A program made the position numbers and the translations under genes. Positions 54,169 to 55,788 of a stretch of DNA of 64,000 bases are shown here, one piece after another. The notes under the pieces were generated by a model that did not search any database, was not told the DNA's origin, and saw nothing but the letters and a program-made list of their open reading frames with translations. Position 1 is the first letter of the stretch. Every line of letters starts with the position of its first letter. The stretch is taken from positions 211,986 through 275,985 of the forward strand of contig JALVOT010000014.1 of the NCBI GenBank assembly GCA_027026255.1, written 5' to 3'. Origin of the DNA: Caldifarciminota bacterium. Its GTDB lineage: Bacteria; Hydrothermota; Tepidihabitantia; SM23-42.

Positions 54169-54260
54169 TTCCACTTACGAAGTGGAAATATAGTCTAAAA
54201 AATAACAGGCAGAAAGTTTTGTAATTTCATAAGATTTTTAGTTCCACTTACGAAGTGGAA
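54169..54260. repeat. Left REP doublet flanking the transposase gene
   Basis: There are two copies of TTCCACTTACGAAGTGGAA (54169-54187 and 54242-54260), each a perfect 8-bp inverted repeat around an ACG loop, both in the same orientation. The 54-base insert between them resembles that of the right doublet (shared TCTAAAAAAT/TCTGAAAAACA, CAGG, TTTGTAATTTCAT/CTTGCAATTTCAT). Such hairpins are the normal substrates of REP-associated transposases. Confidence 0.85.
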
Positions 54261-54266
54261 ACTTGA

Positions 54267-54917
54267 TTACTCTAATATTAGACGTTTACACTCGGAAAGG
54301 AACTTCTGGTAATCCTTTCGGCTTTCCACGAAATCCTGGTACTCACCAGGCTTGAGCGTAATATACGAAGAAAAATTGCATAGACCATAAATTGTAGAAT
54401 TAATATATTCCCGGTATGATGAATAAAACCAATCTTCCGGCCTCTCGACCAGATTATCAGAAACAGGATTAAGATGAATATATCTTGTAAGATGTAAAAG
54501 ATACTCATCATTATCCACAAGGACGCTCTTGAATCGACTCTGCCACAACGGACCCTTCCGTTTGTTCTTGATATTGAAATATCTTGTATAACTATCGAGC
54601 AAAAGTTTTAAATAGTTTGTAATACCATCCTCCTTCAATTGCTTCAGAATCAAATGAATATGCGTGGGCATAATACAATAGGCGATTATCTCAACACTGC
54701 ATGGTTTCGGTTTTATTCTTGTCTCGTAAAAGATATTTTTATCATCCAATTTAGCATAATAAGAAAATTTGACCGGCAACGACAGATGGCGATAAAATTT
54801 TAGCATTTCAACAAATCGATTAAATTCGTGTTTGGTTCGAAAAACTTTGTAGCCGGCTATGCTTTTAGTGAAAATATGATAAAAACAACCTTCAACCAAC
54901 GGCTCTTTTCTCATCAT
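54267..54917 (-). mobile_element. REP-associated tyrosine transposase (RAYT, Y1/IS200-like)
   Basis: The 216-residue protein is a single-strand DNA transposase of the Y1 HUH group. EIIAYCIMPTHIHLILKQ gives the His-x-His metal site, LLLDSYTRYFNIKNKRKG carries the tyrosine nucleophile candidate in the family YxxxxN setting, and KGPLWQSRFKSVLVDNDEY and LTRYIHLNPV are typical RAYT boxes. The gene lies between two matching REP doublets. RAYTs are single-copy, vertically kept relatives of transposases that act on REP hairpins. The frame is complete, so activity is possible. Confidence 0.9.
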
Positions 54918-54932
54918 AACTCCTTAACCACA

Positions 54933-55030
54933 ACCATCTTTCCACTTACGAAGTGGAAAGATGGTCTGAAAAACACAGGTGAAAAGTCTTGCAATTTCAT
55001 TATGTTTTCAGTTCCACTTACGAAGTGGAA
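54933..55030. repeat. Right REP doublet flanking the transposase gene
   Basis: It repeats the left doublet: TTCCACTTACGAAGTGGAA at 54940-54958 and 55012-55030. The first palindrome is longer here, with perfect 15-bp arms from 54933 to 54965 around the ACG loop. All four palindromes in the locus keep the same loop orientation. The second one covers the last codons and stop of the WecG-like gene. Confidence 0.85.
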
Positions 55031-55788
55031 ATTGGGATGTGGGTAATTTTTTTGATTAACCAGATTTTAATGACTTTGATGATGAAGTGCCAGATTTTGA
55101 TATGGCGTTTGATTCTCTGAGGTTGTTTGATTAATCGATAAATCCATTCGGTCCCGGTCTTTCTGAAAAATACCGGAGCCCTCTTTACATTACCAGCAAT
55201 CGTATCCAGAGTCCCTCCTATACCTTGGCAGATATTAACATTTAATCTGGATAAATATTTACTAATCCATATCTCCTGCTTTGGACTTCCTAAAGCAACA
55301 AAAAGCACCTGGGTTTTAGAATCATTAATCTGTTTAATAAGGCTATCCATATCCTCAGAACTAACATAACCATTGGATCTCCCTACAATATTAATATTCG
55401 GAAAGCTCTCTTTTAACTTCTCTACTGCTTTTTTGTTGACCTCTTCTTTGGCTCCATAAATAAAAATTTTATATCCTTTTTCAGCAGATAATCTACAAAT
55501 ATTGAGCATTAAATCGGCACCAGGAATACGCTCGGTCTTTATAGAATGAATTACTTTTAAAGCTACTGTGGCTCCTGCGCCATCAGGGATCAAAAAACTG
55601 GAATTTTCCAGACATTTTAAGAGAAACTGGTTTTTTTGTGCATACATTATCTTTTCTGCATTGACTGCCATTATATTATTGCCCTTGCTATCTTTTTCAA
55701 TCAGGTATGTAATCGTATCCAATATTTTATCAAGATTAACAATATTAACCGGCACACCAAAAACTCTTTTTCTATCGAATAATAGCAT
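55018..55788 (-). CDS. WecG/TagA/CpsF-family glycosyltransferase
   Basis: The 256 residues match the family, with NAEKIMYAQ, FLIPDGAGATVALKVI, ERIPGADLMLNI and the signature FVALGSPKQEIWISKY, then GIGGTLDTIAGNVKRAP and EWIYRLIKQPQRIKRH. WecG/TagA enzymes add a second sugar (ManNAc-type) to an undecaprenyl-linked GlcNAc at the membrane, early in surface-glycan assembly. Its last residues, ISTS, and stop codon are coded inside a REP palindrome, so insertion of the repeat probably replaced the original end. It follows the gene at 55794 by 5 bases. Confidence 0.92.
   Translation of the reverse strand: MLLFDRKRVFGVPVNIVNLDKILDTITYLIEKDSKGNNIMAVNAEKIMYAQKNQFLLKCLENSSFLIPDGAGATVALKVIHSIKTERIPGADLMLNICRLSAEKGYKIFIYGAKEEVNKKAVEKLKESFPNINIVGRSNGYVSSEDMDSLIKQINDSKTQVLFVALGSPKQEIWISKYLSRLNVNICQGIGGTLDTIAGNVKRAPVFFRKTGTEWIYRLIKQPQRIKRHIKIWHFIIKVIKIWLIKKITHIPISTS

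Follow-up and report, generated by a model that had tools for sequence, protein, structure and literature searches.

REP/RAYT systems have been described mostly from Proteobacteria, Cyanobacteria and Bacteroidetes, with REPs that carry a GTAG foot. In the E. coli REPtron (TnpAREP/RAYT with REP/BIME; subclass 2.2), a single-copy HUH-Y1 enzyme with a Y---NP motif is flanked by palindromes that are also dispersed in intergenic DNA. Among other TnpAY1 subclasses, members of subclass 2.1 carry the motif Y[IV]HLNP and are described as having a C-terminal HTH and no REPs, and those of subclass 2.6 have NH[LIV]H and YIH[QN]NP motifs and footless, weak structures (PMC6006769). Subclass 2.1 is also known as TIRYT, the enzyme of TIRtrons (Quentin 2018, Di Nocera 2013). 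A further related unit is the REPIN, an inverted REP doublet. A search of openly accessible literature turned up no publication on RAYTs of Omnitrophota or of candidate phyla.

Here we describe a locus within a 64,000-nt stretch of DNA (the window) from a 2.1-Mb genome of the phylum WOR-3/Caldifarciminota. We conclude that it is very probably a REPtron, in which a single-copy domesticated HUH/Y1 RAYT and its cognate palindromes would seed dispersed REPs. The kind of system is known; the branch to which it belongs looks previously undescribed.

A RAYT gene between two REP doublets

The RAYT gene (54267–54917, minus strand) is an intact open reading frame of 216 amino acids with all catalytic residues present, in agreement with an earlier note on this DNA that had described it as full length. 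Its product matches Pfam PF01797 (Y1_Tnp) with 32.4 bits, over the cut-off, and NF047646 (REP_Tyr_transpos) with 68.2 bits (E = 7e-19), below the model cut-off of 80, and its sole match in the Protein Data Bank is E. coli TnpAREP (4er8; E = 6e-5). The catalytic residues are H86-x-H88, W125 and Y146...N150-P151 (Y146-IHLN-P151), within the motifs THIH, GPLWQ and YIHLNP, with 60 amino acids between HuH and Y; the HUH, W and Y---NP motifs are conserved throughout the RAYT subfamily, which has one copy in this genome. The predicted protein is a class-2 Y1 HUH enzyme of the TnpA-REP type, and it is probably domesticated. Its motifs and copy behaviour, together with the bracketing and dispersal of the palindromes, class the locus as a RAYT with its REPs. 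A Pfam search gave only Y1_Tnp and no C-terminal HTH domain. An AlphaFold model built from four sequences reached a pLDDT of 50 and was left unused.

The 19-mer TTCCACTTACGAAGTGGAA occurs exactly four times in the window, at 54169, 54242, 54940 and 55012, and every copy has an ACG loop when read on the plus strand; with as many as 3 mismatches allowed, dinucleotide shuffles of the window gave 0.01 matches. As had been noted earlier, the four copies share one orientation and form two doublets, each of about 92 bp and here annotated, with their palindromes, on the minus strand. The doublet downstream of the RAYT gene (54169–54260) comprises a palindrome at 54169–54187, which reads TTCCACTTCGTAAGTGGAA on the RAYT sense strand, and another at 54242–54260, 6 bp beyond the RAYT stop codon, with a 54-bp spacer between them. 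The upstream doublet (54940–55030) has a 53-bp spacer between palindromes at 54940–54958 and 55012–55030. Its RAYT-proximal palindrome extends to 54933–54965 (ACCATCTTTCCACTTACGAAGTGGAAAGATGGT), with the 15-bp arms seen before and ACC...GGT ends, and its outer one overlaps the 3′ end of a WecG/TagA-type glycosyltransferase ORF (55018–55788). Because the two spacers are identical at only 39 of 53 positions, we regard the doublets as homologous but old copies; the proposal that they are copies of one unit holds as to homology, with the qualification of age.

The locus resembles the E. coli REPtron in its single-copy HUH-Y1 enzyme, its Y---NP motif, its Protein Data Bank match and the intergenic dispersal of its flanking palindromes. 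It differs in having THIH and YIHLNP rather than DHLH and YIHYNP, in its length of 216 amino acids with a longer tail, and in its REPs, which have near-perfect stems, a 3-nt loop and no bulge, and lack a 5′ GTAG/GTGG foot. A GT[AG]G foot 5′ of the hairpin is absent on either strand for all 18 copies in the genome; copies in the same-genus genome G001 have GTAG/GTAA on the 3′ side only.

Dispersed copies of the palindrome

A genome-wide count, as proposed in the earlier note, yielded 17 exact 19-mers and one copy with 1 mismatch, where composition predicts about 2e-5 copies; a control pattern searched alongside gave no matches. Together with the shuffles of the window, this expectation excludes chance as the source of the copies. 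Fourteen copies, 13 of them exact, lie outside the window. The earlier description of the locus, as a REP/RAYT system that is compact and apparently complete in the genome of a candidate phylum, is supported. The dispersed copies are mostly intergenic, and several lie no farther than 15 bp from stop codons at which convergent genes end. In 11 of the 14 the palindrome is followed by related 24-nt tails (consensus ATCAACTTACATACGAAGATTTGA), with an 11-nt insert in three, and the remaining 3 are bare 19-mers. The dispersed unit measures 43–45 bp, has a 5′ edge that is sharp at the palindrome, and in single-stranded DNA forms a pair of hairpins. Across the genome, 17 of the 18 copies of the 19-mer are without any change, in variable surroundings.

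Outside the 19-mer, the dispersed units are unlike the doublets that flank the RAYT gene. Like a REPIN, each of those doublets consists of two REPs about 50–55 bp apart; unlike a REPIN, each has the same loop orientation throughout, and the dispersed copies are single. Solo doublets, which the earlier note suggested seeking, were not found in the rest of this genome but do occur in G023 and G024, two genomes from another family of the same order that are without this RAYT. These doublets are homologous to those in the window, with inverted, REPIN-like loops and a related spacer, and occupy a common site. They look like an inheritance from a RAYT-bearing time or the remains of a transfer.

Two further observations concern the same genome. 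The REP copies at G000:C17:137087 (L012) and G000:C18:161855 (L017) have a common 352-bp flank that is 95% identical, so they may have been copied within a larger duplication. A second, unrelated REPtron is present at L021 (G000:C8:128000-131251; RAYT match 1501-1752), with a RAYT in a 185-aa frame and GC-rich flanking palindromes such as GCAGGTCGGGACGACCTGC and GCTGGCGGCGGGGACGCC.

A RAYT subfamily common in Omnitrophota

Protein searches found close relatives of the window RAYT in WS2, WOR-3 bin77 and Omnitrophota. G148 belongs to a phylum recorded as Omnitrophota, in which 149 of 384 genomes gave a match at E ≤ 1e-25; judged by score, roughly 80 of these seem to be full members of the subfamily. 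Strong members were found in only 4 of 147 genomes of the window's own phylum. The subfamily is common in Omnitrophota and patchy elsewhere, and no members, nor the 19-mer, were found in viral contigs; phages and plasmids likewise yielded no members. In a tree of 45 members and outgroups, the subfamily is monophyletic (support 100/97), and the window RAYT pairs with that of WS2 (95/96) within a mostly Omnitrophota clade (96/90). The RAYT of WOR-3 bin77 is placed apart from it, a pattern that points to two or more transfers into WOR-3. The nearest RAYT by identity (64.5%) is that of G141, which was found later and stands outside the tree.

By published motif descriptions, the subfamily appears to match no TnpAY1 subclass exactly, because Y[IV]HLNP belongs to the HTH-tailed, REP-less subclass 2.1 and footless structures to the motif-distinct subclass 2.6. 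The likeness to subclass 2.1 extends to inverted repeats that bracket the gene in some relatives, whereas this locus has palindromes, which are also dispersed, and Pfam detects no HTH. With subclass 2.6 the locus shares flanking structures that lack a GT[AG]G consensus and have copies elsewhere in the genome, but the palindromes in the window are strong and the HuH-to-Y distance is 60 rather than about 82 amino acids. We tentatively propose, as a suggestion that could almost as readily prove right as wrong, an undescribed RAYT subclass (THxH / Y[ILV]HLNP, about 220 aa) that is centred on Omnitrophota and common to WOR-3 and WS2. Its enzymes would recognise footless palindromes with a CAC-YK-CGK-RR-GTG-like core (and CACCCC and AACC variants) that tightly bracket and co-evolve with the gene, and its REPs would spread in a fixed orientation relative to the replication fork.

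Palindromes co-vary with the enzyme

We scored bracketing palindromes with one fixed threshold in the 45 subfamily members. A palindrome lies upstream of the RAYT gene in 32, downstream in 29 and on both sides in 24; at the same threshold, palindromes appeared in 19 of 421 control windows (4.5%) and 7 of 900 shuffles. Within a locus, the palindromes on the 5′ and 3′ sides have a median similarity of 0.98; between different loci the mean is 0.34. Loci with more distant proteins also tend to have more distant palindromes (Mantel r = 0.22, p = 0.0002), and the G141 RAYT has TTCCACTTCGTAGGTGGAA, one base from the window REP, on both sides. The subfamily palindromes have a CAC..CG..GTG core in common, of which common types are CACCTACGAGGTG, CACCGCGTAGGTG, AACCTACGAGGTT and CACCCC(A/C)GGGGTG; the core in the window is CACTTACGAAGTG. 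Dozens of such footless protein–palindrome pairs are natural material for studying the way in which hairpins are read by HUH enzymes.

Dispersal varies among the relatives. The whole 29–33-bp palindrome occurs as solos besides the RAYT copies in WS2 (4) and G148 (9). In the one-contig assembly G004, the palindrome of a 51%-identical RAYT is found only at the RAYT flanks; there (L042, 1266-2600), partial copies of the 3′ end of one host gene stand on either side of the gene and its doublets, as though the insertion had hit a duplication or had produced it. At L150 in G272, the RAYT flanks are nested multi-hairpin palindromes of up to 77 nt, formed from repeated CACCTCGTAGGTG cores.

Alternative explanations

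The locus might be an insertion sequence of the IS200/IS605 type, whose gene and ends move together and whose subterminal hairpins would be the four palindromes. Hairpins do border the gene on both sides in tandem, homologous doublets, and the subfamily is patchy across phyla, with the window protein nested among Omnitrophota ones. Same-genome IS200 copies are reported to be 99% identical (PMC6006769). Here, however, the RAYT is single-copy with no identical multi-copy unit seen, paralogues within one Omnitrophota genome are 47–57% identical with differing palindromes, and the Y motif is Y---NP, not Y---Q; we consider this explanation highly improbable. The earlier conjecture that the whole may have moved as a block is not supported, given the same single copy and paralogues of about 50% identity, the diverged spacers and the lack of a clean empty site. 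The thioredoxin neighbour is present in 24 of 27 genomes searched, a count that takes in the genome of the window, and its G001 counterpart is 80% identical, but in relatives neither the WecG neighbour nor a RAYT stands beside the thioredoxin gene. The locus is thus rearranged in relatives, and the empty-site comparison envisaged in the earlier note has no clean counterpart among them. G001 (53% complete) has nothing that corresponds to a 6-kb stretch carrying two solo copies, and in the one alignable G001 REP locus the alignment leaves the REP uncovered.

That the 19-mer is instead a host regulatory or terminator-like palindrome, a binding site or RNA hairpin with the RAYT nearby by coincidence, would fit the copies directly after stop codons between convergent genes, and the hairpins could act in RNA. 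Yet no T-run follows them, the 19-mer is missing from 144 of the 147 genomes of the phylum, and the palindrome varies with RAYT lineage while matching on the two sides of the gene, all of which leaves this account with hardly any credibility. An unlikely but more serious contender is a relic, an old REP population kept by drift with a RAYT that no longer acts: the spacers have diverged, copy number is low, and G023 and G024 retain orphan doublets at a common site. Against it stand the intact reading frame with every catalytic residue and the near-invariant 19-mer. The REPtron reading has its own difficulties in the unlike dispersed units, the confinement in G004, the few skew clusters and the missing empty site.

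REP orientation and GC skew

If the locus is a REPtron, its palindrome would fold into a hairpin in single-stranded DNA, and the RAYT would recognise this hairpin, most likely by its stem and CG-containing loop and not by a GTAG foot. The RAYT tyrosine would then nick and rejoin the strand, and intergenic DNA that is exposed at replication forks would thereby gain new solo copies.

On every informative contig, dispersed REPs are in plus orientation where GC skew is negative and in minus where it is positive, and the strand with the ACG loop is the C-rich strand on C6, C7, C9, C14, C15 and C18. The sample consists of these six clear-skew contigs with about nine separated clusters (C17 is uninformative); clusters that share a contig are not independent of one another, the genome skew is noisy and there is partial confounding with gene direction. 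Provided that GC skew marks the leading strand, the REP version with the CGT loop lies on the lagging-strand template, the known site of action of IS200/IS605 enzymes (PMC6006769). The fixed orientation suggests spread on replication-linked single strands, an idea that orientation statistics in the subfamily can test directly. We also considered transcription direction as the cause of the bias; in this small sample, the directions of neighbouring genes show no rule.

Among the related sequences, a Y1-like protein (IWTTTKDCVEI...) has its HUH replaced by MPDSFY or MPESFY (L023:1447-1953, L068:1273-1851 and L070:1282-1851). In three genomes of the order its gene adjoins one and the same peptidase-like gene, and the protein is a possible domesticated, catalytically dead relative.
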